DNA from: Candidatus Puniceispirillum marinum IMCC1322 | Lineage (GTDB): Bacteria > Pseudomonadota > Alphaproteobacteria > Puniceispirillales > Puniceispirillaceae | DNA length: 64,000 nt | Reading direction: 5' to 3' | Assembly (NCBI RefSeq): GCF_000024465.1 | Contig: NC_014010.1 | Coordinates: forward strand, 1,798,001-1,862,000 | Shown: positions 46,660 through 64,000 of the stretch, in pieces | How positions within the stretch are numbered: the first letter of the stretch is position 1 | Layout: the number at the start of each line of letters is the position of its first letter | Made by a program: the position numbers and the translations under genes | Notes under the pieces: model-generated | The model's database searches: none | The model's input: the letters and a program-made list of their open reading frames with translations, nothing else | Told to the model about the DNA's origin: nothing

Positions 46660-46862
46660 CATTATCTCCACATAGAAAGGACAGGTGAAAACAAATGTGC
46701 GGTTGCGACCAAAGCGGCGCATCATAGCGTATCCTGTTTGCCATCTGATAGGATAGATTGAGGAAAATATCAATGCCTGCTTGTCTGGTTTGATGGATAA
46801 AAGGCATTAGGCCGTTTTTGGTCATCGGCCATGCAGACGCCAAGACAGAAATGTGTCCCAGA

Positions 46863-48254: not shown

Positions 48255-49115
48255 TTAAATACTTTCTTTTACCCATTGGCGTAAATCATCGGCCATATCA
48301 GGCCGTTCAAGCGCAAAGGCGATATTGGCCTGCAAAAATCCCAGCTTTGATCCGCAATCAAAACGCTGACCCGAAAAGCGCAAACCAGTGAAAGGGGCTT
48401 TGCCAATCTGTTTTGCCAGCGCGTCGGTGAGCTGGATTTCATTACCCGCCCCACGTTCCTGGGTGGCTAATGTGGCAAAAACCTCGGGCTGAATGATATA
48501 GCGCCCAACCACGGCCAGCGTCGAGGGTGCCAGATCGGGGGCTGGCTTTTCGACAAGTCCATGTACGTCGATAGAGGTGCCGTTGACTTGGCCTGGCGTT
48601 ACAATACCATATGATGCCGTTTGCGATGCAGGCACATCCATGACCGCAACCATATTACCGCCGCCGGTGCTGTCATAGGCGGCAACCATTTCGGCAAGGC
48701 AGCTTTTGCCCAGAATAAGATCGTCGGCAAGGATGATCGCCACTGGTTCGTCCTTGATGATGTGGCGCGCGCACCAGACAGCATGGCCTAGACCGGCTGG
48801 TTCCTGTTGCCGGACATAGATGACCGATCCAGGATCGCGCATCATGTTATGAACGGTGGCCAGCGCCTGATCCTTGCCGCGGGCTTTCAATGTTGTTTCG
48901 AGTTCGACACTATGATCGAAATGATCTTCGATGGCGGTCTTGTTGCGACCTGTCACGAAGATAAATTCTTCGATGCCAGCCTCGATGGCCTCTTCAACCG
49001 CATATTGAATAAGTGGCTTGTCAACGATTGGCAACATTTCTTTAGGAAGCGCCTTGGTTGCTGGCAGAAACCGTGTGCCAAGTCCGCCGACAGGAAAAAT
49101 GGCTTTTTTAACCAT
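48255..49115 (-). CDS. galU: UTP--glucose-1-phosphate uridylyltransferase
   Basis: Nucleotidyltransferase of about 286 aa making UDP-glucose. The signature FPVGGLGTRFLPATKALPKE is at the N-terminus; PLIQYAVEEAIEAGIEEFIFVTGR and VIILADDLILG-like AIILADDLILG follow. AAGGA precedes the ATG at 49115; the frame is open to 49142. Together with the mutase and the nearby ugd it forms a route to UDP-glucose and UDP-glucuronate. Confidence 0.95.
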   Translation of the reverse strand: MVKKAIFPVGGLGTRFLPATKALPKEMLPIVDKPLIQYAVEEAIEAGIEEFIFVTGRNKTAIEDHFDHSVELETTLKARGKDQALATVHNMMRDPGSVIYVRQQEPAGLGHAVWCARHIIKDEPVAIILADDLILGKSCLAEMVAAYDSTGGGNMVAVMDVPASQTASYGIVTPGQVNGTSIDVHGLVEKPAPDLAPSTLAVVGRYIIQPEVFATLATQERGAGNEIQLTDALAKQIGKAPFTGLRFSGQRFDCGSKLGFLQANIAFALERPDMADDLRQWVKESI

Positions 49116-49205
49116 GTGCTGTCCTTTTTGCCTATCCATCATTGATCCTTATCAAGTATAGGTTCATAACTGAATTAGCAAGTAACAGATTGAGAAGTTG
49201 CCTAA

Positions 49206-49793
49206 ATGGCCTATCCAACCGGAACAGATATCAAAGCCGTGCTTCTTGAATCAGCAGCGGTGAAAACAGCAACAGCCAATATGTATGCGGATGCGGTTAT
49301 TGACGCCGCACTGATGATCGCTGATACCCTAGCACAAGGCGGTAAGCTGATGCTGTGCGGGAATGGTGGTTCGGCTGGCGATGCCCAGCATATCGCCGCT
49401 GAATTTGTGGCAACGCTTGATCATCGCCGCCCGCGTGGCGGGTTGGCGGCGTTGGCACTGACCACGGATACGTCTTTTATCACCGCCTATGCGAATGATT
49501 TCGGTTTTGAAGGTATTTTTCAACGGCAGGTCGAAGCGCTGGGGCGTGAGGGTGATGTGTTGCTTGGTATTTCAACCAGCGGCAATTCGGCGAATGTGGC
49601 GGCGGCTATGGACAGTGCGCGCGGATCAGGCATCAAGACCATTGGCTTTACCGGCGAAGGCGGCGGCAAGCTGGCCCCGCTTAGCGATATGCTGTTTGCC
49701 GTGCCAAGCAGAAAAACCATGCATATCCAGGAAGCACATATTGCGCTGGGGCATGTACTGACGATGGCGGTTGAGCAGATTATGGGCTATTAA
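49206..49793 (+). CDS. gmhA: Phosphoheptose isomerase (SIS domain)
   Basis: SIS-domain protein of 195 aa. Features: LMLCGNGGSAGDAQHIAAEFVATLDHRRPRGGLAALALTTD, VLLGISTSGNSANV and the C-terminal histidine region IQEAHIALGHVL. GmhA converts sedoheptulose-7-phosphate to heptose-7-phosphate for LPS inner core. DiaA is a paralogue with similar sequence, but the catalytic His/Glu pattern favours GmhA. It diverges from galU and precedes ugd. Confidence 0.9.
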   Translation: MAYPTGTDIKAVLLESAAVKTATANMYADAVIDAALMIADTLAQGGKLMLCGNGGSAGDAQHIAAEFVATLDHRRPRGGLAALALTTDTSFITAYANDFGFEGIFQRQVEALGREGDVLLGISTSGNSANVAAAMDSARGSGIKTIGFTGEGGGKLAPLSDMLFAVPSRKTMHIQEAHIALGHVLTMAVEQIMGY

Positions 49794-49874
49794 CAAAACC
49801 ATAATATTAATATGGTAAATGTTAGTCTTGTGAAGTTTGACGCTTGATTGATGATTTTACACGGAGATGGTCTT

Positions 49875-51179
49875 TTGAGGATTGCTGTCATTGGAACAGG
49901 TTATGTCGGGCTGGTATCGGGCGCTTGCTTTTCCGAATTCGGATTTTCTGTGACATGCGTTGATAATGACCAAGCCAAAATCGATCTGATCCAGAATGGT
50001 ACCATGCCAATTTACGAACCTGGTCTGGAAGATCTTGTGGCGCGTAATGTTGCTGCTAGCCGGTTGCATTTCACCACTGATCTTGGCACCGCCGTTGCCG
50101 ATGCCGACGCTGTTTTCATCGCTGTGGGCACGCCAACAAGGCGCGGCGATGGCCATGCTGATCTGTCTTTTGTTTATGCGGTGGCACGCGAGATAGCCCC
50201 GCATCTTGATGGCTATACGGTTGTGGTGACCAAATCGACGGTGCCGGTTGGCACAGGCCGTGAGGTGTATGACATTGTGGCACAGACGAACCCGCAGGCC
50301 GATTTCGACGTGGCATCAAACCCAGAATTTTTGCGTGAAGGCGCAGCGATTAGCGATTTCATGAGGCCAGACCGCGTTGTTGTTGGTACGATGAGCGAAC
50401 GGGCGCGCACGGTGATCCGGGCGCTGTACCGGCCCTTATATCTGATCGAAACGCCCATTATTTTTACCGAGCTGGAAACATCCGAGTTAATCAAATATGC
50501 CAGCAATGCCTTTCTGGCGGTGAAAATTTCCTATATTAATCAGATGGCCGATCTGTGCGAAGCGGTGGGTGCGAATGTGCATGATGTCGCCAAGGGTATG
50601 GGGCTGGATAAGCGTATCGGTAATAAATTCCTGCATCCAGGCCCCGGCTATGGTGGTTCGTGTTTTCCCAAGGATACGCTGGCGTTGGTCAAAACCGCCG
50701 AACAATATAATATCGATATCGGCATCGTCGATGAAGTCGTGTCCTATAATGACAAGCGCAAAAACGCGATGGCGGGACGGGTGAAAGCCGCGCTGGACGG
50801 GGTGGTTGCGGGTAAGGTGATTGCCGTTCTGGGGCTTGCTTTCAAACCCGAAACCGATGATATGCGTGATAGCCCGTCGGTCGATATCATCCGCGAACTT
50901 GTTGATGCTGGCGCGCAGATTAAAACCTATGACCCGAAAGCGATGGACGAAGCGCGGCATATGCTGCCTGATAGCGTCAGCTATTGTGCAAGTGCCGGTG
51001 CCTGTATTAATGATGCCGATGCCGTTGTCATTGTGACGGAATGGAACGAATTCAGGGCTTTGACAGCCGCCCAATTTATCGCCGCCATGCGTGGCCATGT
51101 GCTGGTTGATCTGCGCAATATTTATGATGGCGCACAGATGCGCGATGCCGGGCTGAGCTATTCATCCATCGGCCGCTAA
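49875..51179 (+). CDS. ugd: UDP-glucose 6-dehydrogenase
   Basis: NAD-dependent enzyme of about 434 aa making UDP-glucuronate. The N-terminal Rossmann motif is IAVIGTGYVGLVSGACFSEFG; the catalytic Cys is in GPGYGGSCFPKDTLALVK; FKPETDDMRDSPSVDI is in the C-terminal domain. GGAG at 49863-49866 is well placed for the TTG at 49875, giving MRIAVIGTG, so TTG was chosen over the in-frame codon at 49848. It works with galU across the galU/gmhA divergent region. Confidence 0.94.
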   Translation: MRIAVIGTGYVGLVSGACFSEFGFSVTCVDNDQAKIDLIQNGTMPIYEPGLEDLVARNVAASRLHFTTDLGTAVADADAVFIAVGTPTRRGDGHADLSFVYAVAREIAPHLDGYTVVVTKSTVPVGTGREVYDIVAQTNPQADFDVASNPEFLREGAAISDFMRPDRVVVGTMSERARTVIRALYRPLYLIETPIIFTELETSELIKYASNAFLAVKISYINQMADLCEAVGANVHDVAKGMGLDKRIGNKFLHPGPGYGGSCFPKDTLALVKTAEQYNIDIGIVDEVVSYNDKRKNAMAGRVKAALDGVVAGKVIAVLGLAFKPETDDMRDSPSVDIIRELVDAGAQIKTYDPKAMDEARHMLPDSVSYCASAGACINDADAVVIVTEWNEFRALTAAQFIAAMRGHVLVDLRNIYDGAQMRDAGLSYSSIGR

Positions 51180-51207
51180 ACAACTACCCTTGCCAGCGGC
51201 TTTAGGC

Positions 51208-51636
51208 CTATGCCGTTGTCACAATGGCAATGCCGATCAATATGGCCGCCAATGATGTGCGGGCGATATAAGGAATAGCATTCATGATTTTCGGATTTGG
51301 CGGGATGCCTTTTTTGGCGCTCATCGCCAGATGAAAATTCAAAAAGGCAATCACCAGCAACAGAATTGTGGCGCCCAGTAATTTCAGATGAAACGCCCAG
51401 CCAAGGTTGAAACTGCCATATATCTGGTTGGTCAGAATAATACCGGTTACCCATAAAATCACTATGGCGACAAGGCCAAGACGTGCCAGTGTCATCATGG
51501 TCTGCTGAACAGGTGGGGCAGGAGGCATCTGGGCCTTTTGATGCGCCTTGGCCAGTAGCGCATTGGCAACGCCAAGCCCGCCAGCCAGAAATAACGACAG
51601 ATAATGAAAAAATTTCAACGCGACAATCAATGACAT
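51208..51636 (-). CDS. Small four-helix membrane protein, function unknown
   Basis: Predicted inner-membrane protein of 142 aa with four hydrophobic helices and a Pro/Gln-rich loop (KAHQKAQMPPAPPVQQTMM). An N-terminal histidine (FFHYLSLFLAGGLGVANALL) and layout faintly recall HemJ/CopD-like membrane proteins, but no family was recognised. GAGGG precedes the ATG at 51636. A truncated copy of its first 37 codons plus upstream DNA lies about 1.07 kb away at 52566-52709. Confidence 0.75.
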   Translation of the reverse strand: MSLIVALKFFHYLSLFLAGGLGVANALLAKAHQKAQMPPAPPVQQTMMTLARLGLVAIVILWVTGIILTNQIYGSFNLGWAFHLKLLGATILLLVIAFLNFHLAMSAKKGIPPNPKIMNAIPYIARTSLAAILIGIAIVTTA

Positions 51637-51836
51637 AGTACCCTCACATTCATTTCTAACAATCATAGTTTAGGATTATTTATTGTGCATGTGAAACTGT
51701 ATAGAGATGTGGGCTTTGCGCAATGACTATGTCTGGGGCTATGTTTGGGTTTGGGGCTATGTCTGGCCACGCCGGTTGTGCATGATTGCACAGATGACAG
51801 GCAAAATGAAGCCGATATAGACAAAAAGAGGACGTG

Positions 51837-52274
51837 TTATTCTGCGAATGTGGGTGGTTGCTTTACCCTGAAAAGGTAACCTTCCTCGAGTTTGAATAAG
51901 AATTCAACACCACCCCACGGCGGATGACGAATCTCAGAACACTCAAATCCGCGATCTATGACCGCATCTCTCAGGTTCGCTAATTCTTTTACGCAAATTA
52001 CAACTTCTATGCCTTTTCCACCCTCACCAGGTTTAGGTAACAAAAATTCGCTTTGCCCCGACTTGTCTGGTGGTGGAGAGAATAGCATGATGTCGAAATA
52101 GGTGGGGTGACGCAATTGCCGCCAACCGGGCTTTTCTTCAATCGGTTTGAAATTAAACACGCTCTCAAAGAGTTCTGCATATTCATCCTGGTTGTTAGTA
52201 TAAAGTTCAATCTGGATCATTTCACGTTCTTGTTTATCAACAATAGTGTGAACCGATTTTGGGTCTGTCATCAT
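51837..52274 (-). CDS. VOC-superfamily (glyoxalase-like) protein
   Basis: Protein of 145 aa with a vicinal-oxygen-chelate-like pattern: IQIELYTNNQDEYAELFESVFNFKP, YFDIMLFSPPPD, GIEVVICVKELANLRDAVIDRGFECSEIRHPPWGG and EGYLFRVKQPPTF. Canonical metal ligands are unclear and the substrate is unknown. The last 40 codons are closely similar to those of the damaged gene at 55670-55945. It sits between the two copies of a segmental duplication. Confidence 0.75.
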   Translation of the reverse strand: MMTDPKSVHTIVDKQEREMIQIELYTNNQDEYAELFESVFNFKPIEEKPGWRQLRHPTYFDIMLFSPPPDKSGQSEFLLPKPGEGGKGIEVVICVKELANLRDAVIDRGFECSEIRHPPWGGVEFLFKLEEGYLFRVKQPPTFAE

Positions 52275-52927
52275 GCGCCTATATGGACGTCGCTCTATGG
52301 CAAGGGTTGATTTGCGTGTTTGGACAAGATAGGTTGCAGTTCTATATCCGGCCTGTTGATGCGGAACATTTGCCCGCTGGCCCTGATGGAATCTGCTGAT
52401 CCGGTCCTTATTCCTCTCGCGGGCTCGTAGCCCTGCACATGATTCAGGTTTACCGGATCATGGTTTGACCCATTTGCCATCACACTATATCGCGCCTTGC
52501 GCATCTCTTGACGTGCCATCTCCCTTTGCTGTTAATCCTCAAATTCCATATCTATCAGCCATACCTCAAGCGGGGTGCGCCGTTGGTGGGGCAGGAGGCA
52601 TCTGGGCCTTTTGATGCGCCTTGGCCAGTAGCGCATTGGCAACGCCAAGCCCGCCTGCCAGAAATAGCGATAGATAATGAAAAAACTTCAGCGCGACAAT
52701 CAATGACATAAACACCCCCAATAATAGCTGACAATCACATGCGTGGATTAGGTCATGTGGATTGCGGCATAGTGACTATGAAACTGTACAGGGATGCGGG
52801 TTTAGTGCAATCACTTAAATGATAAAAGCTAACGCGCCAGATGCCGGGCAGAATATATCTGTCACGGTGGCTTAAAATAATTGTTGGCACAGGCATAGTA
52901 TGGTTTCGTTTGAAAAGGGAGGTGGTC
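52275..52927. other. Gap containing one arm of a segmental duplication
   Basis: The stretch 52311-52565 shows no gene I can support; a 74-codon open frame there has no visible homology pattern. The stretch 52566-52815 is the second arm of the duplication described under 51208. The SDR promoter should lie at 52800-52920. Confidence 0.65.
52566..52709 (-). pseudogene. Truncated copy of the 51208 membrane protein gene
   Basis: From its ATG at 52709 the frame gives the same first 37 residues as the gene at 51208-51636 (MSLIVALKFFHYLSLFLAGG... to QMPPAPP), then diverges and stops within five codons. Upstream DNA to about 52815 also matches (for example GAAACTGTACAGGGATG against GAAACTGTATAGAGATG). 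The copies differ by several silent changes, so the duplication is not brand new. Confidence 0.85.
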
Positions 52928-53662
52928 ATGACACGATTTGAACAGAAAAAGGCGTTGGTGACCGGCGCGGCAGGTGGCATCGGATCAGCCATTGTCCGCA
53001 TGCTGATGGCCGAAGGCGCGCAGGTTGCGGTGGCTGACCGTGCGGTGGCGGGGCTTGATGCCAGCGTGCATCTGCCAGGTGATTTGCTGGATCCTGTCTA
53101 TAGTGATGGGTTGCCAAAAGCCGCAGAGGCGGCGCTGGGTGGACTTGATATCGTTATTAATAATGCCGGGGTGATTGCCCGCGGCGCTGTAACCGCGACC
53201 AGTGATGATGACTGGAACCTATCGCTTGGGGTGAATGTGGAAGCACCTTTTCGCATATGCCGTGCAGCGATTCCTATTCTTGCCGCTACGGGGGGTGGGG
53301 CGATTGTCAATACGGCCTCTTGCTGGGGATTGCGGCCAGGGCCAAACCATGCGCTGTACTGCATGACCAAAGCCGCGATGGCGTCACTGACGCAATGTAT
53401 GGGGATGGATCATGCGCATCAGGGCATTCGGGTGAATGCGGTCTGCCCAAATGAAGTGAACACGCCAATGTTGCGCACCGGCTTTGTCAGCCGCGGATTT
53501 GATCCTGATACGGCGCTGGCGTTACTGGATAAGACGGTGCCGATTGGCCGTGTTGCCGAAGCCGAAGACATTGCCGATGTGGTGCTGTTTCTAGCGTCTG
53601 ATGCCGCCCGTTATATGTGCGGTGCATTGGTCGAGGTCAATGGCGGGAAGGCGGTGGCATGA
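52928..53662 (+). CDS. SDR family oxidoreductase (first of pair)
   Basis: Short-chain dehydrogenase of 244 aa. Nucleotide-binding [18 protein letters not shown] in [12 protein letters not shown], catalytic Ser in VNTASCWG and YxxxK as YCMTK. The substrate is unknown. AGGGAGG lies 6 nt before the ATG at 52928; the frame is open from 52841. The stop overlaps the next SDR gene by 4 bp. Confidence 0.9.
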
Positions 53663-54393
53663 GACGATTTGACGGGAAAGTCGCGCTGGTCACGGGCGGG
53701 CGTAGCGGCATCGGCAAAGCCATTGCCCAGCGTTTGCAGGATGAAGGGGCAAAAGTTTTTACCGCCCAGCGACAGGCAGATGATGTGTTTGACCATATCA
53801 TCACCGATCTGACCGATGATCAGGCGATAGCCGCCAGCGTTGCCGCGGTGATTGAACAAGGTGGCGGGCTTGATATTCTGGTCAATAATGCGGGGATGAT
53901 GCAGGAAGCGACAGTCGAGGATATGAGCCTTGATGACTGGCAAGACACTATTATGGTCAATCTGACCGCGCCGTTTCTGCTTATCAAAGCGGCGCTTCCA
54001 GCCTTGCGCCAGGCTGGTGGTGCGATCGTCAATATCGGATCGATCGAGGGGCTGGGATCAAACCCCGGTCATGCTGCCTATTGTGCGTCGAAAGCCGGAC
54101 TGCATGGGCTGACGCGCGCTGTGGCGGTCGATGAGGGCGCAGCGGGCATTCGCTGTAATGCGGTGGCACCAGGCTGGATCGATACCATGCTGAATAATGC
54201 GTTCATTGACACGATGGCTGATCCGGCACAATTCAAAGCCGAAATTGGTACTATTCATCCGCTGGGGCGCACCGGGCAACCCGAGGAGGTCGCCGCGCTG
54301 GTCGCCTTTCTGGCATCAGATGATGCCAGTTTTATCACCGGCCAGATTTATACCGTCGATGGCGGCCGCATGGCAAAATTAAGCCTGCCATAA
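53659..54393 (+). CDS. SDR family oxidoreductase (second of pair)
   Basis: Short-chain dehydrogenase of 244 aa. [25 protein letters not shown], catalytic Ser in NIGSIEG and YCASK. It ends [17 protein letters not shown], a usual SDR C-terminus. It overlaps the first SDR (ATGA at 53659) and the two are about equal in length, so they are probably consecutive steps on one substrate. The neighbour on the opposite strand is a tartrate/malate dehydrogenase. Confidence 0.9.
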
Positions 54394-54415
54394 CCTGTCC
54401 AGAGGTTGGCGGCAT

Positions 54416-55489
54416 TCAGCTGTTAAGCTGACGGATGGCATCCAAAACCGCGTCTGTGACCTGTCTGGTGGTTTTGGTGCCGCCCACATCAGGGGTTAAT
54501 ATGCCATCGGCACAGACCTGTTCAATCGCGGTGAAAAGCCGGCTTGCTTCATTGGTCAGGCCAAGATGATCGAGCATCTGTACACCTGTCCAGAAGGTTG
54601 CCACCGGATTGGCTATGCCCTTGCCAGTGATGTCAAAGGCAGAGCCGTGGATAGGTTCAAACATCGATGGAAACCGGCCTTCTGGATCAATATTGGCAGT
54701 TGGGGCAATGCCGATACTGCCCGCCAGCGCGCCAGCCAGATCAGACAGAATATCGGCATGCAGATTTGTCGCTACGATGGTGTCAAGCGTGTCTGGCTGT
54801 AATGTCATCCGCACGGTCATTGCATCTACCAGCATTTTGTCCCATGCCACATCGGGGAATTCGGTAGCGACTTCTGCGGCGATTTCATCCCACATCACCA
54901 TGCCATGGCGCTGGGCATTGGATTTTGTTACCACGGTGAGGAATTTACGCGGGCGTGTCTGGGCCAGACGGAAGGCATAGCGCATTATGCGAGTCACCCC
55001 GACACGGGTGAAGATAGCGACTTCGGTGCCGACCTCTTCGGGCATGCCGCGATGCGCCCGCCCGCCATGACCTGAATATTCACCTTCGGAATTCTCGCGC
55101 ACAATGACCCAGTCGAGATCGCCAGGACCAGCGTTGCGCAAAGGCGAATCTATGCCCGCGATGATTTTTGTCGGTCGCACATTGGCATATTGGTCGAAGC
55201 CCTGACAAATCGGCAGACGCAAGCCCCATAAAGTGACATGATCGGGCACGTCAGGCGCACCAACGGCGCCAAAATAGATGGCATCGAAGGTCTTTAACGT
55301 ATCAAGCCCATCAGCCGGCATCATTTCGCCATGCCGTTTATAATAATCCGATCCCCAGTCAAAATGCGTAAAGTTCAGATCGATATCACTATTGCGTGCA
55401 CATACGGCCTGTACAACCTCAATGCCGACAGAAATGACTTCCGGGCCAATACCATCTGCAGGAATGGACGCAATATTGATAGGTTTCAT
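54416..55489 (-). CDS. Tartrate dehydrogenase/decarboxylase or D-malate dehydrogenase
   Basis: Member of the isocitrate/isopropylmalate dehydrogenase family, about 357 aa. IPADGIGPEVISVGIEVV at the N-terminus, FDAIYFGAVGAPDVPDHVTLWGLRLPICQGFDQYANVRP, ENSEGEYSGHGGR, KMLVDAMTVRMTLQPDTLDTIVATNLHADILSDLAGALAGSIGIAPTANI. The LWGLRLPICQGFDQYANVRP substrate loop points to the TtuC type rather than LeuB. It is convergent with the SDR pair. The start at 55489 (MKPINIASIPADG) was chosen. Confidence 0.9.
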   Translation of the reverse strand: MKPINIASIPADGIGPEVISVGIEVVQAVCARNSDIDLNFTHFDWGSDYYKRHGEMMPADGLDTLKTFDAIYFGAVGAPDVPDHVTLWGLRLPICQGFDQYANVRPTKIIAGIDSPLRNAGPGDLDWVIVRENSEGEYSGHGGRAHRGMPEEVGTEVAIFTRVGVTRIMRYAFRLAQTRPRKFLTVVTKSNAQRHGMVMWDEIAAEVATEFPDVAWDKMLVDAMTVRMTLQPDTLDTIVATNLHADILSDLAGALAGSIGIAPTANIDPEGRFPSMFEPIHGSAFDITGKGIANPVATFWTGVQMLDHLGLTNEASRLFTAIEQVCADGILTPDVGGTKTTRQVTDAVLDAIRQLNS

Positions 55490-56206
55490 GATCACACTCT
55501 TTTGATGCCGCATTCATTATGTTTTACGGTATAGGCGCTTCATGAATTTTTGGCTAGTCGTAGATGATCTGGATGTGCTGCTGGCGGCGTTGCGAACGGT
55601 GGTCATCATCCATCGGGCGTGATATTGATCCGTATGATATTGCGCATAAGTGCCTTAAAGATGGCTAGGCTATGCGGTGAATGTGGGCGGTTGCTTTGCT
55701 CTGAAAAGACAGCCTTCATTGAGGGTAAAGACAAAATCAGCACCACCCCAAGGTGGATGACGCAGGTCAGAACATGCACATCCGCGATCGATGCTCGCAT
55801 CTACCGAGACACAATATATATCGGCAAGCTGGTAAGGCACCAGCAAATCAGCATCATTGCTGGCAAAATCAGAGTTGCGTAAAGATATATGCGCCGCGCC
55901 CCTATCATGGGAAATAAATGCCTGTTCCACAACATGAGACGTCATTAAACGGCACCCGAACCCCTGTTTCAGAATGACCTGTTCGAAAGGGGTGGAGGCT
56001 TGTGCCTTGGAACTCGGTGATTGCTTGATTGTCCAGTGGAACGATCGAAGTCTGGGTGATAATGTCTAGATTATTGGCATTGATTTCATGGTTGTTCTAG
56101 TTTTAGCATGTTCATATTATTATTGTTCAAATGATCATTTTTAAAAACCGTTTGTTATTTGGTTGTTAATTATTCGAGTCTCTAAGTTTTAATAAGGTTC
56201 AAGTCT
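55490..56206. other. Gap with a VOC remnant and AT-rich promoter region
   Basis: The segment 55514-55669 has no gene I can support. The VOC remnant at 55670-55945 is listed separately. From about 56085 the DNA becomes strongly A+T rich up to the start at 56207 and probably contains its promoter. Confidence 0.6.
55670..55945 (-). pseudogene. Probable truncated VOC-family gene, paralogue of 51837
   Basis: A 91-codon frame. Residues 46-91 closely match the C-terminus of the gene at 51837 (VDASIDRGCACSDLRHPPWGG against RDAVIDRGFECSEIRHPPWGG, then LFRAKQPPTF). The N-terminal part differs, reading like another VOC half (GAAHISLRNSDFASNDADLL). The open frame extends upstream to about 56065 (FEQVILKQGFGCRL) but with no start codon, so the 5' end seems lost. 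A short expressed protein from the ATG at 55945 cannot be excluded. Confidence 0.6.
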
Positions 56207-57478
56207 ATGAAAAGAAGAGACGTTAATATCAAATTAGGATTTACCCTATGTTCGATGGCAATGCCAAACTTCATGTTAAAGGATGCTTTTGCAGCTTTGC
56301 CAGGGTCAGTGACCTGGGGCGGAATTTATCTGCTTGAAGATAAACCGGATGTTATGCCTTTTACGCGGCGCGCGTTAGAGATGTCCAAGAATGACAGCCC
56401 GACAGGAATTAGTGTAAACAAGACACTTCTTCAGGAAATACGAAATACTGACTGGTCAGGAACAGGTATTAATCTGCGCACAGGTCTCAAAAAAAAGGAG
56501 ACTCGATACGGTATGGTATTTGGGCTAGCATCAGAAAAAGTGCTGGCTAAAGTTTATTTGCCGAGCATTGATTCAACCCAGTATATTTTGCGTTCATTTG
56601 GCTACGCAACAGTTTACGATATCGTTGAACGTAGGATTGTATCCTGTATTGCTGTTAGAGCCAGATATTTTGATAATTTACCCGGCAAGCCTGATCCAGC
56701 ACAAATGCCAATGTTGTTCTTTAATCTTCTGGCTAATAAAGACCAACCGGGTAGCCTCACCCGTTTCATGGTCAAAGAGGTTAAGGGTTACCCATTTGAA
56801 GAAAAATATAAGGGTAAATATTTTCAGGTAGATCCTGTTATTTTTTCGGACTTTGCTCTCGAGAACGCAGCTACCATTGGGATAAACACTGAAAGTTATG
56901 GTGATGATACAGGGTTTGCAGTTACAACATCATTTTCTGAAAACTTACGCTCACCTCTTGTTCCATATAGAAAAACGAGTGCGGTAAACCGTGAAATGCT
57001 GTCAGAGATGAAAATTGTTTCAGCTTCTGGCGACAGTGCCTTGAATACTGCAATGACGTTGAAGCCAGCTGATTGCGGCATGGAAATAACTCATGAAGGT
57101 TGGGAATTTGTAATCACTGCTAGCAGTGATACACGTAATCAGGTTGCCTTGGTAACACGGTTATCGTTCCGCTTTTATGACAAAGATAGTGGCGAAACTT
57201 TTTTCAATCAGGGTTATTACGGCAAACAGGAATTTGTAGAATTAAACAACTTTTCTATTGCACGAAAAAGCCGGTTATTCATGCTTCACGAAACAATTAT
57301 AGATAGGGTGTTTTCTGGAATTTGGTCTGAGGAAATCAGAGGTAAAGTTTTTGATGGTGAAGAAACAAAAACGAAAAGTCAGAATACTTTTATACAAGCT
57401 GACGCTGATGACTGGGATATGTTTACAGCTGAAAGCAAACTTGTTCTTGCACGCCTACCGCGGGCATTTGGAAGCTAA
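56207..57478 (+). CDS. Exported protein of unknown function
   Basis: Protein of 423 aa that I do not recognise. The N-terminus MKRRDVNIKLGFTLCSMAMPNF has a twin arginine then a moderately hydrophobic stretch, ending near DAFAAL; it could be a Tat or Sec signal. The rest is mixed alpha/beta with two similar-length halves and no repeats. AAGG precedes the ATG. Codon use is A+T rich like the convergent operon at 57520, with which it probably forms one accessory island. Confidence 0.7.
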   Translation: MKRRDVNIKLGFTLCSMAMPNFMLKDAFAALPGSVTWGGIYLLEDKPDVMPFTRRALEMSKNDSPTGISVNKTLLQEIRNTDWSGTGINLRTGLKKKETRYGMVFGLASEKVLAKVYLPSIDSTQYILRSFGYATVYDIVERRIVSCIAVRARYFDNLPGKPDPAQMPMLFFNLLANKDQPGSLTRFMVKEVKGYPFEEKYKGKYFQVDPVIFSDFALENAATIGINTESYGDDTGFAVTTSFSENLRSPLVPYRKTSAVNREMLSEMKIVSASGDSALNTAMTLKPADCGMEITHEGWEFVITASSDTRNQVALVTRLSFRFYDKDSGETFFNQGYYGKQEFVELNNFSIARKSRLFMLHETIIDRVFSGIWSEEIRGKVFDGEETKTKSQNTFIQADADDWDMFTAESKLVLARLPRAFGS

Positions 57479-57502
57479 GGCATCATCATTAACTTCCAAA
57501 TG
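57465..57502. terminator. Hairpin between convergent genes
   Basis: Perfect 10-bp inverted repeat CATTTGGAAG (57465-57474) and CTTCCAAATG (57493-57502) with an 18-nt loop spanning the stop codon of the 56207 gene. It may act as a terminator in both directions, though there is no T-run. Confidence 0.55.
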
Positions 57503-57519
57503 TAGCTGAAGGCTATTGT

Positions 57520-58959
57520 TTAGCGACTCTTTTTCTTTCGCGGTGCTAAAATATTAGTATTTACAGTCGCATTTGTCGGTTTTAATTCAACATTTGTACG
57601 TGACGAAAATTCAATTATCCCTTGTCGGATTTTGCATGAATTCACTCGCATTCGGCCAATTTCACCAACTAACTGGACCGTGTCGTTGTTAAGAATATTA
57701 CCATTACCTGATGATAAAAACACAAAACTGTAAGACAAACCCAGCAAATATGTTTCATCAATATAGTTTTCAGTTCGTGTAAATAGAGCTTGAACTTTTG
57801 GCATAGCGCTTGACTCTAAGGCTTCAACATTTTTGAGCTGCGTCACAAGCATATTTTGGAAATCATCCGTAACAACTAGTAATTCAGTAACTGTGGTAAT
57901 TGATGGGTTGGTTTGATTTGACAGCTCCGCAAAGACAGCTTTGTATTTTTCAATATCCACACCTGCATTGGTCAGTTCTGCAAGGTCAATAAGCAGTGTG
58001 CCTCGGGTAATTGTAAGATCATATACTTGGGATCTAAAAAAAGTAGCATCGCTTATATTGCTAGAACTTTGTGAAAGTTGTTGCTCAAAACTTTGTTTTT
58101 GTTCTTCAGCGGCCTGTATCAAATCAACATACAAGTCACGGTTTAAATAATTTGGGTTAAGAACAATTTCAAAGAACTCGTTTTCGATAACTTGTGCCAA
58201 ATCACCATCACGTTTTGCAGAAATTTCATAGGCAGGTCTCATCCAACTTGCAGCGTTTTTTAGATTAACATTTCGACCATAACCACGTGCCCATTTCAGC
58301 CCTTCAATGAAGCGTGCACCATATTGGTTCTTTTTTGCAGCCTCTTTGATCAATTTGTTTCCAAAGTCTTTATTACCGCCAACATTATGGAAGAAAAGAT
58401 GTATCAATCCGTATGCAAACTGTGCATCAGCGGCAATTATTTTTTTCTTTTTGTCAAAGCTTTGGGTATTCATTGTTGATGCCATGATGCTAAGATCACG
58501 GGTGTTAGGAGACTTCACAAAATTACTAAAAAGTTCGGTAACTTCATCACTATTAAAGGCCTGTACATATTGATCAAGTGTGGTGAGATATGGCAAATTC
58601 ACTTCTGATGAAAGCTTCAACATGGCTTTTATCTGAGACTCATTTTTGTTGAAATCCTTTGTTACCAGAGCCATGTCTGGTTTCCCAAGTTTATTGTAAA
58701 TATTGCTTTTTGGCGATGAGTCACAAATAAAATTTATGAACTTATTACTATTTGCAATTGCTGAAGCATTGTTACTTGTTGAGGGGCTGGATACGGTCGA
58801 TTCAGATTTGCTTGCATCATTATTGGTACTTTTGTTTTGAGTCGCACCTTCAATTTTGTTTTTGATAGCTTTTAGATCATCAAAAAGCCCAGCTGAAGCC
58901 TCTATCGGTGATACGAACATGACCAGAGGTATTATAAACTTTACTAATTTAAACATCAC
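57520..58959 (-). CDS. Exported protein with Sel1-like segment (fifth gene of operon)
   Basis: Protein of 479 aa with a Sec signal (FKLVKFIIPLVMFVSPIEASA, cleavage before GLFDD). A Ser/Asn-rich linker (about residues 40-70) follows. About residues 170-240 resemble Sel1/TPR helices: AQFAYGLIHLFFHNVGG, KDFGNKLIKEAAKKNQYGAR, NLKNAASWMRPAYE. The C-terminal half is helical, with coiled-coil-like Gln/Glu-rich parts. It ends in a basic PRKKKSR tail. Its start overlaps the previous gene by 4 bp. The family was not recognised. Confidence 0.75.
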   Translation of the reverse strand: MMFKLVKFIIPLVMFVSPIEASAGLFDDLKAIKNKIEGATQNKSTNNDASKSESTVSSPSTSNNASAIANSNKFINFICDSSPKSNIYNKLGKPDMALVTKDFNKNESQIKAMLKLSSEVNLPYLTTLDQYVQAFNSDEVTELFSNFVKSPNTRDLSIMASTMNTQSFDKKKKIIAADAQFAYGLIHLFFHNVGGNKDFGNKLIKEAAKKNQYGARFIEGLKWARGYGRNVNLKNAASWMRPAYEISAKRDGDLAQVIENEFFEIVLNPNYLNRDLYVDLIQAAEEQKQSFEQQLSQSSSNISDATFFRSQVYDLTITRGTLLIDLAELTNAGVDIEKYKAVFAELSNQTNPSITTVTELLVVTDDFQNMLVTQLKNVEALESSAMPKVQALFTRTENYIDETYLLGLSYSFVFLSSGNGNILNNDTVQLVGEIGRMRVNSCKIRQGIIEFSSRTNVELKPTNATVNTNILAPRKKKSR

Positions 58960-60164
58960 TTTTTCCTCTTACTATTACTTGCCTGAAGCTTGAAAATTTC
59001 TGAAATAACTGGATATCCTGCCTCATTAAGCATATCCGACAATTCTCGCATTGCCGTAATTGTAGGCGCTTGTTCAAATGACTGAAAAGCTTCGCTTAGC
59101 TCAATTTCTTCCAACTTCTCAATCTGAAGAATAGTTTTACTTTCGTCTTCAAATTCGAGGCTTTCTAAGATAATTTCGCTAGATTCAGTAGCCAAATTCT
59201 GTTCGCCTAATTCGAAGCTGGCTGGGACAGTTCCAAAACTGTTGATAATTAGATGAGTCAGCCAGGTGTCGTTATCTAGGGTATTCGTCGCCTTCAAATT
59301 ATCGAATTCATTTATTGCGCCATCAAGCATATCAACTGAGGGCATGCGAGTCATATTCCGCTTTTTTGGTTCAATCTTTATCCGCCCCAGATAGAAGCTT
59401 ATTTTTTCGAGAACCACACAGTTGGGATATAAAGCATCTGCAAGTGCAGGAAGTTTTTTGGTGGCTAGGGCTGGCAGCAAAGTTTGGCATATATATGGGT
59501 TGAAAGGGGCTTCATCTAGTAATGAAAAAATCCCCGAGAGTTCTGTAGGAATACCCTCAGCTCTAAGCGCTCGCCCGCTAAACTCAAAATTTTTGGGACT
59601 TAGGCTGTTTTGTCCAGGGAACATCGCATATGAGTGGCCTAGATAATTAACCCGCCATAATTTCATTGCTGATGCATACAAATTTAGATCTGGATAGGCT
59701 AGTGATAGCTCAATTGCAAATTCAGGCGTAATCAAAGACGACTGTGTTTTGACTAGTTGTTGAATTTTTTCCACCAAGTCATTGTCACTTATTTGTGGTG
59801 GATCATCAGGAATATTCCCAGAAAACACAAAATGCCATTTATTATTAATTTTTTTGCGTTTTATGTTTTCAAACCCTGTCACGTCTGAAGATTTGTAATA
59901 TCCATTACGCAATATGGACTCTAATCGACCTTGGTGAGGATCCCGCACAATTGATAGTGCAAAAGAGACATCGGCAAAATATAACTCAAGCATCTGCACT
60001 TGAGCCGTTAATCTGGCACGATCAAGAAATATTTTTTGTTCCAGTTTGCTTTTTGGAGGATCAAGCGCAAATTCCACAGTAACGGTGCGCGCTTCTACGC
60101 TCATTGGCAAAAGTGCGGTCATCACAAAAGCTAAGAAGCGTATAGCGCGAAAACTAAAAATCAT
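58956..60164 (-). CDS. Exported protein of unknown function (fourth gene of operon)
   Basis: Protein of about 402 aa with a Sec signal (MIFSFRAIRFLAFVMTALLP, cleavage after SVEA). The mature part begins TVTVEFALDPPKSKLEQKIF and is mostly helical; it contains NYLGHSYAMFPGQNSLSPKNF and ends in a Lys-rich NSKRKK. No domain was recognised. The open frame extends to 60212, but the start at 60164 gives a proper signal peptide and an 11-bp overlap with the gene before it. Coupling at both ends shows it belongs to the operon. Confidence 0.72.
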   Translation of the reverse strand: MIFSFRAIRFLAFVMTALLPMSVEARTVTVEFALDPPKSKLEQKIFLDRARLTAQVQMLELYFADVSFALSIVRDPHQGRLESILRNGYYKSSDVTGFENIKRKKINNKWHFVFSGNIPDDPPQISDNDLVEKIQQLVKTQSSLITPEFAIELSLAYPDLNLYASAMKLWRVNYLGHSYAMFPGQNSLSPKNFEFSGRALRAEGIPTELSGIFSLLDEAPFNPYICQTLLPALATKKLPALADALYPNCVVLEKISFYLGRIKIEPKKRNMTRMPSVDMLDGAINEFDNLKATNTLDNDTWLTHLIINSFGTVPASFELGEQNLATESSEIILESLEFEDESKTILQIEKLEEIELSEAFQSFEQAPTITAMRELSDMLNEAGYPVISEIFKLQASNSKRKK

Positions 60165-61551
60165 CTTCAGTTGTTGAGGCCCCGGATGAGCCAGATATCC
60201 CAACACTACCATTACTCTTTAATCTCGTGCTTGAAGAATTTTTAGCTGGGTTAGTGGCCTTTTTAATAGGTTGATTATTTGCGTTAATTTCATCCTGAGA
60301 TTTTTTCATTGATGCAGGTGTCCACACAAGAATAGCTCCTGCAATTGGTTGTTTTGAAACAGGATGTTTTACGCCCCAAAATTTTGGTTTGGCCCCTACG
60401 ATATCTAAAGCTGAAGATGCTGACTCAATGGCTACATCTAAGGCTGAGCCACCTTCGTAAATTTCACCACCATCCGCCAATTCTTTATAATTAGTGTAAT
60501 TTTGGGAGTTTTTTGTTTTGAGGGCAATTTCACCCATAAAAGTACGAAGATCGCCTTGTGCACGAGCTAAAGCTTCCTCTTTTGCTGCTTTGAGCATTAG
60601 TTGTGAGCTTGATTTTGCGCCTGCTTGGGCATATGAAATGACAGCATAGTTTCCATTTTCATCCCGGACAATCTGAACCCCGTATGAAGTCAGTAATTCC
60701 ATCAGGCCTTTATTCGTTTTTGGGTTAGGAATATGTTGTGATAGAGGTTTGCCAACCTTGGCTTTGGGAAGATAGCTTGGGTCTTGGGATACTATAGCCC
60801 TGGCAACATTCCTTAAATTATCGGAAGTTACCATAACAACACAAACTTCACCCTTTTTTCCTTTACGCGACGTTTCAGCAACAAAACCGCGGCTGGTGCC
60901 AATAAGCATCTCTCTTGAAATAGTGTTGACTGCATTGTTGAATGTCTCGCCACCAAGGGTAGCAACAATGTCATCAGCTTCCTCAGCCGTTTCAGGTTCT
61001 GGTGGGGCTGTAGACGCTAATTCCTTATCAAGTTCGCGGTGAACCACTTCTAATGATTTCTTAAATGCCGATTTTAAGTCACGATTATCAACCGATGCAG
61101 CAGCGCCTTCATCGGTTGCTGGTTCAGGAAAATTTCCAGCAAAAATACGGGTTGAAACCTGACGCGCAACCTTAGCACGTAACGCCTCTAGGATATTGCC
61201 TTTAGCCTCAAGAACTGCCTTGTCATAGGCGTTCTGTCGTTCATTGATGTAGTTAGGGTGACCCGGTTCTACCAGCACAATGCCCATCCCTACAGAAACT
61301 GAAAACGGCTTGGTTGGATCATTCCACCCTTTGGCTTCAACATGATCATCACAGACGGTTGTGATGCCATCGAGCGGTTCCAATTTCAGCTCAACTTCTG
61401 CATCTATATCAAGAACATCTTCATTTGCTAGTGCCAACTTTGGCGCTAATAAAGTCATAGCAAAGGCCACAGAAACAGCACAACAGAGCCTTTTACAATT
61501 AGCCTTATCACTTATGCCAAAATGAATTTTTCTTTTTGATAGGTGACGCAT
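60154..61551 (-). CDS. Exported protein, possibly DUF6844-like (third gene of operon)
   Basis: Protein of 465 aa. A 43-residue signal region (basic start, then CCAVSVAFAMTLLAPKLALA) precedes the mature NEDVLDIDAEVELKLEPL. A domain FSVSVGMGIVLVEPGHPNYI followed by NERQNAYDKAVLEAKGNILEALRAKVARQV has the repeated-alanine helix seen in FlgT-N/LPP20-type modules; a second such helix is SQLMLKAAKEEALARAQGDL near residue 320. The C-terminus is Ser/Gly-rich and acidic. The DUF6844 match is from memory and uncertain. 10 bp separate it from the FlgT-like gene. Confidence 0.72.
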   Translation of the reverse strand: MRHLSKRKIHFGISDKANCKRLCCAVSVAFAMTLLAPKLALANEDVLDIDAEVELKLEPLDGITTVCDDHVEAKGWNDPTKPFSVSVGMGIVLVEPGHPNYINERQNAYDKAVLEAKGNILEALRAKVARQVSTRIFAGNFPEPATDEGAAASVDNRDLKSAFKKSLEVVHRELDKELASTAPPEPETAEEADDIVATLGGETFNNAVNTISREMLIGTSRGFVAETSRKGKKGEVCVVMVTSDNLRNVARAIVSQDPSYLPKAKVGKPLSQHIPNPKTNKGLMELLTSYGVQIVRDENGNYAVISYAQAGAKSSSQLMLKAAKEEALARAQGDLRTFMGEIALKTKNSQNYTNYKELADGGEIYEGGSALDVAIESASSALDIVGAKPKFWGVKHPVSKQPIAGAILVWTPASMKKSQDEINANNQPIKKATNPAKNSSSTRLKSNGSVGISGSSGASTTEDDF

Positions 61552-61561
61552 ATCACTACTC

Positions 61562-62803
61562 CTAGTTAAAGCTCTGTTTCATTTCTTCAATTCGGTTTTT
61601 TGCTTTTTTTACATTCTTGCGATTTGCTTCGAGGGTTGCTGTGGTATTTGAGCGCAATGGTCTAACAATGTATTTATAACCAGTGAGTTTAGTGACGTCG
61701 CCCACTTCTATCTCGATAATACGCCCAGTAGACTGCTTTGACTGAACACGTTCAATTTTGATCTTACCAACGGGAATTTCCTGAAAACCAAGGCTTTCTT
61801 TTGTGTAGGGATCGATCATTCGTTCACCAAGTTGAACAAGTTCATAGATTTCGTTTCTGACAAATGTCTTGCCGCCCTGACCAATGGTTACAGCATCACC
61901 ATCGATTGCCACAATTCGGGCTGGATATATTGCGTTTTGAATGGTTTGACCGATCACGCGGCCACCGTCTTTGGCTAGCGTGCGATAATCTTGTTCACTC
62001 CGGATCACAATAGTGTCGGAAAATTTAATCTGAGACGTGGCAACATCAAGAATGCGCACGCTGATCTCGCCGACGACCTGCTTTGATTCTTTGATTCGGT
62101 TATTGGTTTTCATTTTTTTCTGATAGATATTAGTATTGAGTTCACGCATGATCATCACCACCAGATAATCTGTGCCGACCTTGTTCCCCAAGCGTGCCAA
62201 TTCTCTGGTCGCCATTCCGGATGTAGCAATGTAATTAAGCTCGGTCTGCGTATCAGCAAGGTTATTTCGATCTATCATCGCAAAACGGCGCGTCTGGGTG
62301 AGGTAGTCAACCACCGCATTTTGAATGGCAAGAGCTGTTGCGTCGGCCGCACGCCGATCGGACACGTTATCATCCACATATAGCCCAGAAACCGCCATAC
62401 GCAGGCGGTTCAGTTGTTTTGATTGTTTCAGTTTTGAGATGCGAACTGCCAGTTGAACAACGTAGTTATTTCCCAGAGACGCATCGCGCCCCGAAGATAG
62501 AACATCATAGCCATCTACGACGCCCTTAGTTGCTGTGGTGATGTCTTTAGAAAAAGCGGAGGCAGCGGTGTAGGATTCAGCCTGATTAGTCTCGGTGCTA
62601 ACAGTCGCCATCTCAAGCCGGCTTTGTGAGGCTACTTCTACACCATTCACCATGCTGACGGCTGATTGCAAGCCATCTAAAATGGCATCACCAAGGGTTA
62701 AACCCATACCTTCTACATTTACCTCAACGATCTCAACACGCGCGACAGCTGCGTTTGGAACGGCCATATATATTGCGGTTAAAAGTAAAAATAACTTTAA
62801 CAT
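61562..62803 (-). CDS. FlgT/CsgG-like exported protein (second gene of operon)
   Basis: Protein of 413 aa with a Sec signal (LKLFLLLTAIYMAVPNAAVA) and no lipobox. Three modules can be seen. The N-terminal one is FlgT-N-like: VEVNVEGMGLTLGDAILDGL, then QSAVSMVNGVEVAS. The middle one (about residues 150-280) is CsgG/FlgO-like: TRRFAMIDRNNLADTQTELN, LARLGNKVGTDYLVVMIM, GEISVRILDVATSQIKFSDT. The C-terminal one is a beta domain like FlgT-C: ARIVAIDGDAVTIGQGGKTF, GERMIDPYTKESLGFQEIPVGKIKI. Known relatives sit at the flagellar H-ring or in curli-type secretion; no such genes adjoin here. Confidence 0.75.
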   Translation of the reverse strand: MLKLFLLLTAIYMAVPNAAVARVEIVEVNVEGMGLTLGDAILDGLQSAVSMVNGVEVASQSRLEMATVSTETNQAESYTAASAFSKDITTATKGVVDGYDVLSSGRDASLGNNYVVQLAVRISKLKQSKQLNRLRMAVSGLYVDDNVSDRRAADATALAIQNAVVDYLTQTRRFAMIDRNNLADTQTELNYIATSGMATRELARLGNKVGTDYLVVMIMRELNTNIYQKKMKTNNRIKESKQVVGEISVRILDVATSQIKFSDTIVIRSEQDYRTLAKDGGRVIGQTIQNAIYPARIVAIDGDAVTIGQGGKTFVRNEIYELVQLGERMIDPYTKESLGFQEIPVGKIKIERVQSKQSTGRIIEIEVGDVTKLTGYKYIVRPLRSNTTATLEANRKNVKKAKNRIEEMKQSFN

Positions 62804-62869
62804 TAATCAAAGCTCTCGCGCTCTTATAGTCAAACTCATTACAAAATTAATTTAGTTAAATAGCATTTA

Positions 62870-64000
62870 TTAGTTTACACCTTTTGCGTTTAACCGACTG
62901 ACAATCTCATTTGCCGTAAAGTCTCCAGCCGTGATTAAAGCATTACGAACAGCTGTGTTATCTTCGGGCCCCCCCGCTTGGGCTTGTACCGGGCCTATTG
63001 CCGCAACTTTCTTTGGAAGACGCTTGGCCAAGCTAAGTACCTCACCATTTATTGAAACAACAACATTATAGCCTTCAACACCTGACGCGCGTGGCTGGTT
63101 GATATCAATTGTACCAATAGCCAGATATTCCACCTCACAATCGCGTGCTGCTGTAATCACAGATTTACGTGTTTCACGAGACATTTTCCCATTGAGCGCC
63201 AATTCTTCTTCGACAATTTCTAGTTCTTCACCACCGCATTCATTGACAAGGTCCACATAGTCGATGGGCTCATAATTTGCGAGCGACAATACCTCTGCCA
63301 TTTTGGTACTAAAATCAGCAGAAGGCACCACATCATATTCACGTATGACTGAGGTGGTTTCGGTGCCACGATTCACAGTTTTGCCTGAACTCTGGCTACT
63401 GTTTTTAGACTCGCTTAGCGTGCTTTCCACGGCAGTTGTATCATCTTGAGCTTCTACAATTTCAACGCTTTTCAGTGAACGAGAACTAGAATTTTTTTCA
63501 ACATCGGCATCATAGGTCGTAGTGTCACCACCGGCTGTATAAGTTGCTTGTTTTGCGGCGAATATCCAAACCATGTAAGCACCATCACCATCACCACCAC
63601 CTGATGCTTGAGTAAACAAGCCATCAACTAATGACTGATTTATTGTTAACAGCGCTTCGGCATTCACTATTTTAGATTTCTTATCAACTTTGTGACTAAG
63701 CTCTTTTCCAAGAATGTAATTATCCAAATTACCCAGGATTTCCGACCCACGCGCTAGATATTGTTGCATTCGCCCAGCTTCCATGCAGGTGCTGATATAT
63801 TTATTCCAAGCGGCGAGTAAAGCTTGTTGGCGGGCTTCTTCTATGTCTTCAGGTTTTGGTTTTTTTGAAAAATTACTTTTGGGCGTGTAAACAATTGAAG
63901 CCGATCCATAGAAAGGCTGATCTGAAAAGCAGCTTGCTAGGGTCTGATGACTAAAAAAACTTGTTAAACCAAAAAATAAAACACTAGCTAAAACAAGCGA
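62870..64000 (-). CDS. Exported CsgG/FlgO-like protein, 5' end outside the window (first visible gene of operon)
   Basis: The frame stays open from the internal ATG at 63784 to the window edge, so the start lies beyond 64000. The visible 376 codons begin with a hydrophobic segment LVLASVLFFGLTSFFS and TLASCFSDQP, probably the signal peptide, so little is missing. Next is an alanine-rich helix (EEARQQALLAAWNKYISTCM), then Ser/Thr-rich acidic linkers (SSSRSLKSVEIV, SESKNSSQSSGKT). The C-terminal domain (EYLAIGTIDINQPR, YNVVVSINGEVLSLAKRLP, AGDFTANEIVSRL) has a CsgG/FlgO-like pattern. 66 bp separate it from the next gene. Confidence 0.72.
   Translation of the reverse strand, partial: SLVLASVLFFGLTSFFSHQTLASCFSDQPFYGSASIVYTPKSNFSKKPKPEDIEEARQQALLAAWNKYISTCMEAGRMQQYLARGSEILGNLDNYILGKELSHKVDKKSKIVNAEALLTINQSLVDGLFTQASGGGDGDGAYMVWIFAAKQATYTAGGDTTTYDADVEKNSSSRSLKSVEIVEAQDDTTAVESTLSESKNSSQSSGKTVNRGTETTSVIREYDVVPSADFSTKMAEVLSLANYEPIDYVDLVNECGGEELEIVEEELALNGKMSRETRKSVITAARDCEVEYLAIGTIDINQPRASGVEGYNVVVSINGEVLSLAKRLPKKVAAIGPVQAQAGGPEDNTAVRNALITAGDFTANEIVSRLNAKGVN

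Follow-up and report, generated by a model that had tools for sequence, protein, structure and literature searches.

Five exported proteins in Candidatus Puniceispirillum marinum IMCC1322: a possible ring part of a larger ion-driven envelope machine

What do five adjacent genes for exported proteins build at one end of a stretch of the Candidatus Puniceispirillum marinum IMCC1322 chromosome, and do they act alone? The window, by which we mean the whole 64,000-nucleotide stretch that was analysed, spans positions 1798001-1862000 of a genome assembled as one contig of 2,753,527 bases. A preliminary description, made from its letters alone, had read the five genes as possibly a new envelope assembly or secretion system with a FlgT/CsgG-like core. 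We find that this operon is not the whole system but one arm of a cluster of ~25 kb and about two dozen genes, that two of its products (B4 and B5) have predicted folds of the FlgT/CsgG kind, and that it is linked in relatives to a set of genes that includes a relative of ion-driven motor proteins. The reading we prefer, with a probability of roughly 55%, is that the operon provides the periplasmic or outer-membrane ring part of a larger ion-driven trans-envelope machine. The cluster genes are called A1, B1-B5, C1-C7, D1-D7 and E1-E4, names coined here for convenience. "Relative stretches" below refers to 20 stretches that came from 15 relatives. The operon consists of:

B1, 57520..58959, minus strand: exported protein, 479 aa (amino acids), GTG start; homologues in 11/20 relative stretches
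B2, 58956..60212, minus strand: exported protein, 418 aa (402 aa with the ATG at 60164 as start); the least well conserved of the five
B3, 60154..61551, minus strand: exported protein, 465 aa, with a weak DUF6844 match
B4, 61562..62803, minus strand: predicted N domain (residues ~22-126), CsgG/TolB-N-type middle domain (~130-294) and beta-barrel C domain (~295-384)
B5, 62870..64009 (in the window to 64000), minus strand: 379 aa, possible FlgT-N-like front and predicted TolB-N/CsgG/PelC-type C-terminal domain

Predicted folds and layout of the operon

AlphaFold2 models of B4 and B5 were computed as single chains from alignments of the window proteins with homologues from named genomes. The best PDB match found by Foldseek for the B4 model (predicted local distance difference test score, pLDDT, 69.2) is FlgT (3w1e; E 1.4e-19 over 399 columns, template modelling (TM) scores 0.30/0.34, root-mean-square deviation (rmsd) 17.6), followed by chain 0 of the LPHT ring (8z5n, E 1.7e-18), which we infer to be FlgT as well. 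VIA-align also pairs B4 with FlgT (Z 14.6, 229 residues aligned, rmsd 12.4), and the match covers B4 residues 26 to 377, so that the three-module, FlgT-like layout attributed earlier to this protein is supported at the level of predicted structure. B4 thus shares its three-domain layout with a protein of the H-ring of the Vibrio sodium-driven flagellum, from which it differs in its low identity (12%) and low whole-chain TM-score; the latter indicates either that the domains are differently placed or that the model is loose. Taken alone, the middle domain is closest to CT253 (Z 15.3), TolB (Z 13) and CsgG (Z 11), and the C domain to the N-terminal barrel of V/A-type ATPases (Z 9.5, the same structural aligner).

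Profiles of B4 and B5 searched against the PDB returned neither FlgT nor CsgG, the match appearing in the predicted structures alone. In Pfam, B4 of the window shows sub-threshold similarity to CsgG (E 0.002; 17.9 bits against a cut-off of 20.8) and LpoB (E 0.01). Its homologue in L089 exceeds the cut-offs for both CsgG (29.7 bits against 20.8) and LpoB and has a sub-threshold FlgT_C match (E 7e-4); the homologue in L079 exceeds that for LpoB.

B5, which runs 9 bases past the window edge, gave a model of pLDDT 72.2 whose best Foldseek match is the LPHT-ring chain (8z5n; E 2.3e-6, TM 0.29/0.31). Its C-terminal half aligns with TolB-N, CsgG and PelC at Z 10-11, in agreement with the CsgG/FlgO-like end first proposed for it, which is better described as a predicted TolB-N/CsgG/PelC-type domain. 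The FlgT matches of the model also make a FlgT-N-like front part possible. These fold matches mean that the original FlgT/CsgG idea is valid for B4 and B5. Likeness to the CsgG/PelC/TolB N-domain/LpoB fold family accordingly lies in the middle domain of B4 and the C-terminal domain of B5. Pfam named no curli, Pel or Tol partner in the cluster, and the central stretch of B5 (~131-220), which is beta-rich and modelled with low confidence, is only a low-confidence candidate for a membrane barrel. In all 11 B5 homologues a cysteine (Cys27) directly follows the signal-like stretch; it may serve as a lipid anchor or form a disulphide, and the preceding residue is too variable for a clear lipobox.

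The remaining features of the operon were largely as first described. Five minus-strand open reading frames (ORFs) lie at the expected positions, and their coordinates give the reported gaps of 66 and 10 bp and overlaps of 11 and 4 bp; the overlap of B3 with B2 is 11 bp with the B2 start at 60164 and 59 bp with the first ATG at 60212, and that of B2 with B1 is 4 bp. Simple hydropathy finds a hydrophobic stretch near the N-terminus in 5/5, as anticipated for signal peptides. The block is indeed AT-richer, with a G+C content of 36-46% in 1-kb windows compared with 51-57% in those starting at 53000-55000.

Domain assignments for the other members fared less well. The repeats of the Sel1 kind suggested for B1 were not recovered: Pfam returned no Sel1 model for B1 up to E 10, nor for four B1 homologues up to E 1, although HMMER filters drop most weak matches in such scans. 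B1 was on these grounds rejected as a Sel1 repeat protein. For B3, thought to contain FlgT-N/LPP20 modules, Pfam yields DUF6844 alone (E 8.5e-4, below cut-off), a family that the L079 homologue matches at E 9e-12; B1, B2 and B5 have no credible Pfam match. B3 was recognised by BLAST in 5/20 relative stretches and by iterated profile in 10/10 D3 loci carrying B4, and B2 in 5/20 stretches and in 0/80 of the D3 loci collected later. Two genomes from a different genus have a second B3-like copy fused to the front of B4 (L048:11949-14306 and L049:942-3347), and in one SAR116 family an N-terminal extension of ~500 aa is fused ahead of B4 (L044:8472-11201).

The surrounding cluster and its distribution

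Reading past 64000, a step already proposed in the preliminary description, uncovered the remainder of the cluster, in which C1-C7 diverge from B5 and are followed by D1-D7 on the minus strand and E1-E4 on the plus strand. On the other side of the operon lies A1. These genes are:

A1, 56207..57478, plus strand: probably exported, family unassigned, convergent with the operon; no Pfam match
C1 and C2, past B5, divergent from it: probably exported
C3, past B5, divergent from it: 135 aa, one membrane helix
C4, past B5, divergent from it: SLT domain (Pfam, E 8.8e-23; 80.5 bits against a cut-off of 21.3)
C5 and C6, past B5, divergent from it: no credible Pfam family
C7, L002:13980-15299, divergent from B5: one membrane helix
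D1 and D2, beyond C7, minus strand: one N-terminal helix each, no credible Pfam family
D3, beyond C7, minus strand: four hydrophobic segments by hydropathy; MotA/TolQ/ExbB-superfamily by profile, nearest ZorA
D4 and D5, beyond C7, minus strand: no credible Pfam family
D6, beyond C7, minus strand: lipobox, no credible Pfam family
D7, beyond C7, minus strand: glycine zipper, sub-threshold
E1, beyond D7, plus strand
E2, beyond D7, plus strand: M48 peptidase
E3, beyond D7, plus strand: TPR
E4, L003:5973-7838, plus strand: Castor/Pollux-type channel at the far end of the cluster

The association of operon and core was examined in 136 genomes of the order by searches for B4 and for D3 that were independent of each other. 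B4 is present in 27 genomes and D3 in 28, with 23 having both (Fisher p 2.3e-17); in 16 of these 23 the two lie on one contig, 6.6-12.3 kb apart, and in the other 7 on separate contigs. Across the relative stretches A1, B1, B4, B5, C1-C7 and D1-D7 recur, and E1-E4 are found in 2; A1 homologues occur in 11/20, adjoining B1 in every case (11/11). When a D3 alignment was run against 84,980 species genomes, 125 relatives emerged, of which the best 80 loci were analysed. Ten of these D3 loci carry B4 according to iterated profiles, and they contain B3 in 10 cases, A1 and B1 in 9, B5 in 6 and B2 in none; because the family profiles started from relatives retrieved with B4 and D3 and were then iterated, such counts are biased towards joint occurrence. 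The expected linkage of the genes in relatives stands, and their exact order is not fixed, given the rarity of B2, the B3-B4 fusions and the rearranged loci L079, L089 and L092. In the last three, which the D3 tree places apart from the main SAR116 group, A1, B1, B3, B4 and B5 lie beside the core in other arrangements.

D6-D5-D4-D3-D2-D1, C5-C6-C7 and C3-C4 make up a core that is found again in scattered members of the Alpha- and Gammaproteobacteria. Of the 80 loci, 67 have D6-D5-D4-D3-D1 in full, with a single order and strand in 66 of them; where C5-C6-C7 is also complete it is ordered in 43/43, and the commonest D4/D3 junction is a 4-base overlap (26/77). Among the 41 loci with full flanks, D1, D3, D4, D5 and D6 are present in all 41, D2 and C5 in 30, C3, C6 and C7 in 29, C4 in 27, B5 in 8 and B4 in 7. 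Alphaproteobacterial carriers include SAR116, other Rhodospirillales-like bacteria, Sneathiella, Magnetovibrio, Terasakiella and BAL199, and gammaproteobacterial ones Glaciecola, Paraglaciecola, Agaribacter, Ningiella and Colwellia; many carriers are marine. Occurrence is patchy: counting the genome under study, D3 of the core was detected in 20/385 genomes of the class and 8/398 of the phylum, each figure including one weak match (E 6.8e-4 and E 1.4e-4, respectively) that is probably no orthologue. The 12 gammaproteobacterial rows of the D3 tree group together as a single clade (support 95/91). L055, labelled gammaproteobacterial, was kept outside this group, its sequence lying inside SAR116, a choice that biases the test of the labels towards one clade. 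The Terasakiella D3 gave no match when compared with plasmids.

A candidate motor and the readings it allows

D3 is the member that ties the cluster to ion-driven motors. Against the ZorA profile, D3 of the window genome scores E 2.5e-4, and 17 of 22 diverse D3 members match ZorA with an E of at most 1 (4.4e-8 for the best), the similarity lying in the last two membrane helices. Within the Zorya defence system, ZorA is the subunit of MotA/ExbB/TolQ type. A SAR116 D3 profile had as its sole PDB match 8vvn, a MotA/TolQ/ExbB-domain protein (E 0.011). The likeness of D3 to the superfamily thus consists of the ZorA-matching pair of helices and the four hydrophobic segments; it differs in remaining sub-threshold in Pfam and in having no ZorB-, TolR- or ExbD-like partner recognisable by profile. 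C3 may be that partner, as suggested by its topology and by the distribution it shares with D3: it has one N-terminal hydrophobic helix with a membrane glutamate (Glu13) that is invariant in 55/55 members. The corresponding conserved acidic residue of MotB, TolR and AglQ/S is an aspartate, according to PMC9389320.

C7 possesses a second pair of invariant residues, Ser79 and Lys129, which lie ahead of its membrane helix and are conserved in 53/53 members. Over this region its profile matches Lon-type peptidases in 16 of 19 PDB matches (11 Lon protease and 5 endopeptidase La/TTC1975), with a best E of just 0.021, and Lys129 aligns two places after the catalytic lysine of Lon. Pfam Lon was without a match in 9 C7 members. 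Judged by its sequence, C7 could be an unrecognised membrane-anchored Ser/Lys peptidase whose part ahead of the helix is taken to be cytoplasmic. Pfam families in C7 were confined to single homologues, namely DUF4384 behind the helix in Terasakiella (E 8e-13) and a fused FHA domain in Colwellia (E 4e-6), with nothing else credible.

Together, a motor-like protein, one-helix proteins with long linkers (in D1 the linker is long and variable, and the C-terminal region is conserved), a putative wall cutter, a lipoprotein and proteins of the FlgT/CsgG type suggest a force-transducing machine of the Tol/Ton/Agl/Gld kind. Tol-Pal, Ton, Agl-Glt gliding and GldLM of type IX secretion likewise combine a motor-like protein of the inner membrane, long-linker proteins anchored in the membrane and a lipoprotein, but none of their specific proteins was recognised in the cluster. 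Agl gliding in Myxococcus also has a lytic transglycosylase, AgmT, which connects adhesion complexes to the wall (PMC11444678), and the cluster has C4. In the machine we propose, D3 and C3, with its membrane glutamate, would form an ion-driven motor, D1 and D2 would carry force across the periplasm, and C4, a lytic transglycosylase, would open the wall. D4, D5, D6 and C1/C2 would be periplasmic or located at the outer membrane, and C5, C6 and the Lon-like portion of C7 would have working or regulatory roles facing the cytoplasm. B4 and B5 would, in the SAR116 version, form FlgT/CsgG-type rings round the distal end, and the machine would probably serve to drive the assembly, secretion or movement of a structure on the cell surface.

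Several results weigh against this proposal. The 8vvn match was lost with a deeper D3 profile, and Pfam MotA_ExbB was found in 5 of 22 D3 members at E 0.041 at best, below the cut-off; four proteins of the window genome match MotA_ExbB and none is D3. Profile comparison of D3 with TolQ gave 17.2, within the range of shuffled controls (mean 14.4, maximum 18.6), and that of C3 with TolR 14.2 (mean 12.4, maximum 17.3). Ranking of ORFs was likewise unconvincing, as the TolQ profile places the best D3 ORF 24th (E 20) and the D3 profile places the best TolQ ORF 5th of 746 (E 2.3), after unrelated ORFs; single-sequence hhalign showed nothing significant. A by-eye resemblance of C3's membrane segment to ExbD and of D3 to TolQ failed the shuffled-control profile comparison, and membership of the TolQRA/ExbBD-TonB systems was rejected. 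The ZorA matches and the null comparison with TolQ together lead us to assign D3, by profile, to the MotA/TolQ/ExbB superfamily as a protein that is not recognisably TolQ. For C3 no profile ties to TolR, ExbD, MotB or ZorB and no relevant PDB or PADLOC match were found, and C3 and D3 belong to different operons of the window genome. The conserved histidine reported for TonB/TolA-type helices (PMC12204202) is missing from residues 1-45 in 44/70 D1 and 33/41 D2 members. The structural models are of middling confidence with low whole-chain TM-scores (about 0.3), and only 10/80 D3 loci carry B4 and 12/80 carry B5, many being too short to show either, so that the core seems able to do without them.

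This low count would also be expected if the operon were a self-contained CsgG/PelC-type secretion unit or outer-membrane pore, exporting partner proteins of its own, the motor-like genes being a separate fellow traveller. The CsgG/PelC/TolB-N-type domains of B5 and B4 suit such a unit, and sugar-nucleotide genes recognised by eye ~5 kb before A1 may do so too. However, operon and core share 23 genomes and are still linked in the rearranged loci L079, L089 and L092, and among the cluster proteins of the window genome Pfam names no curli or exopolysaccharide partner, so we regard a pore unit as unlikely. Membership of a curli system was rejected, with no curli partner among the Pfam-scanned cluster proteins; the csgA, csgB, csgE and csgF families were not found among these proteins, the remaining genome not having been searched. 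A role in peptidoglycan remodelling, in which LpoB-like and transglycosylase parts regulate wall synthesis and the motor-like part acts as an envelope stabiliser similar to Tol-Pal, would account for the LpoB matches of the B4 homologues in L089 and L079, the SLT domain of C4 and the Ser/Thr kinases of two gammaproteobacterial loci, which carry a peptidoglycan-binding domain. We judge it distinctly improbable, as a patchy presence in 20/385 class genomes (one of them weak) is ill-suited to a housekeeping function and the whole layout of B4 is closer to FlgT than to LpoB (Z 14.6 against 9.6).

The chance that B4 and B5 are an accessory H-ring of an ordinary flagellum, comparable to Vibrio FlgT, is slight. 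FlgT is the best fold match of B4 and the window genome does carry flagellar FlgI (at 895776), but FlgI is found in 20/28 genomes with D3 and 59/108 others (p 0.13), showing no association. Two genomes (G131 and G134, 99% and 96% complete) have B4 and D3 with no FlgI match, and Pfam found no flagellar protein among the scanned cluster proteins. In addition, B4 is accompanied by a second related protein, B5. Membership of a Vibrio-type H-ring was thus rejected, and the lack of association between FlgI and D3, with the two genomes lacking a FlgI match, indicates that the flagellum is probably not the client. Slighter still is the chance of a Zorya-type anti-phage system in which ZorA-like D3 acts as the sensor and further genes encode effectors. 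The ZorA profiles nearest to D3 and the patchy distribution would fit, but D3, with a median length of 176 aa, is without the long tail of the ZorA models (461-699 positions), none of 16 C3 members matches ZorB (one stray PglZ match, E 0.013), and the other 7 of the 8 window-genome cluster proteins scanned along with D3 have no PADLOC match. Many parts of the cluster also look exported, and the single gammaproteobacterial D3 clade argues against frequent transfer between classes.

We therefore retain the reading of the operon as the ring part of a larger ion-driven trans-envelope machine. That this machine represents an undescribed class is a more tentative proposal, to which we give slightly less than an even chance. 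Such a class would combine a ZorA-like motor that uses glutamate, a Lon-like Ser/Lys protein anchored in the membrane, a lytic transglycosylase of its own, linker force carriers, a flagella-independent outer ring of the FlgT/CsgG type in SAR116, and kinase/FHA control in the Gammaproteobacteria. The view of the locus as a new envelope system, free of standard flagellar or curli partners, has held so far: no named system was matched in the libraries searched, Pfam named no such partner among the cluster proteins of the window genome, including those beyond 64000, and NCBIfam gave nothing below E 0.04 for the 10 cluster proteins tried. No description of the cluster was found in the literature searched, which is weak evidence of absence since preprints and most subscription papers lay outside its coverage. 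If the reading is correct, an ion-powered envelope machine that is unnamed in the databases used occurs in an abundant clade of the ocean and in several bacteria that can be cultured; it would be a new branch of small rotary or force-transducing motors in which glutamate replaces aspartate. FlgT-type rings would then act outside flagella, which bears on the origin of flagellar accessory rings. The proposal is directly testable in culturable carriers of the core, namely Terasakiella pusilla, Glaciecola pallidula, Paraglaciecola hydrolytica and Agaribacter marinus.

Control genes and other neighbours

Kinase and FHA-domain genes are found near the core in Gammaproteobacteria:

L117:5036-7810, kinase or FHA-domain gene
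L076:2493-5729, kinase or FHA-domain gene
L117:14573-16978, kinase or FHA-domain gene
L127:1084-3414, kinase or FHA-domain gene

A cluster of kinase-related ORFs has members in 8/12 gammaproteobacterial loci, and the two members scanned, from two such loci, contain Ser/Thr kinase, peptidoglycan-binding and FGE-sulfatase domains. Type VI secretion is likewise controlled by a kinase with an FHA partner, and by analogy this pairing hints at a machine regulated by contact or stress. One gammaproteobacterial cluster also encodes a protein of 1152 aa with von Willebrand A and OmpA domains (L131:13959-17417), a candidate for a wall-anchored force carrier or a client.

A small family that resembles lipoproteins by eye (e.g. 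L130:11845-12711), with no Pfam match, is represented in 32/80 loci, and in 26 of these 32 its gene starts within 35 bases of the end of D1. Genes for Castor/Pollux channels of the E4 type also adjoin the A1/B genes in L048 and L049. No tRNA genes were found in window 45000-64000 or in stretch L002, and the AT-rich stretch (G+C about 35-46%) extends from approximately window base 55500 to genome position 1880000. The genes that flank the cluster farther out look metabolic by eye, and the sugar-nucleotide genes mentioned above (window 48255-51179) appear to encode GalU-like, SIS-domain and UDP-glucose-dehydrogenase-like proteins.

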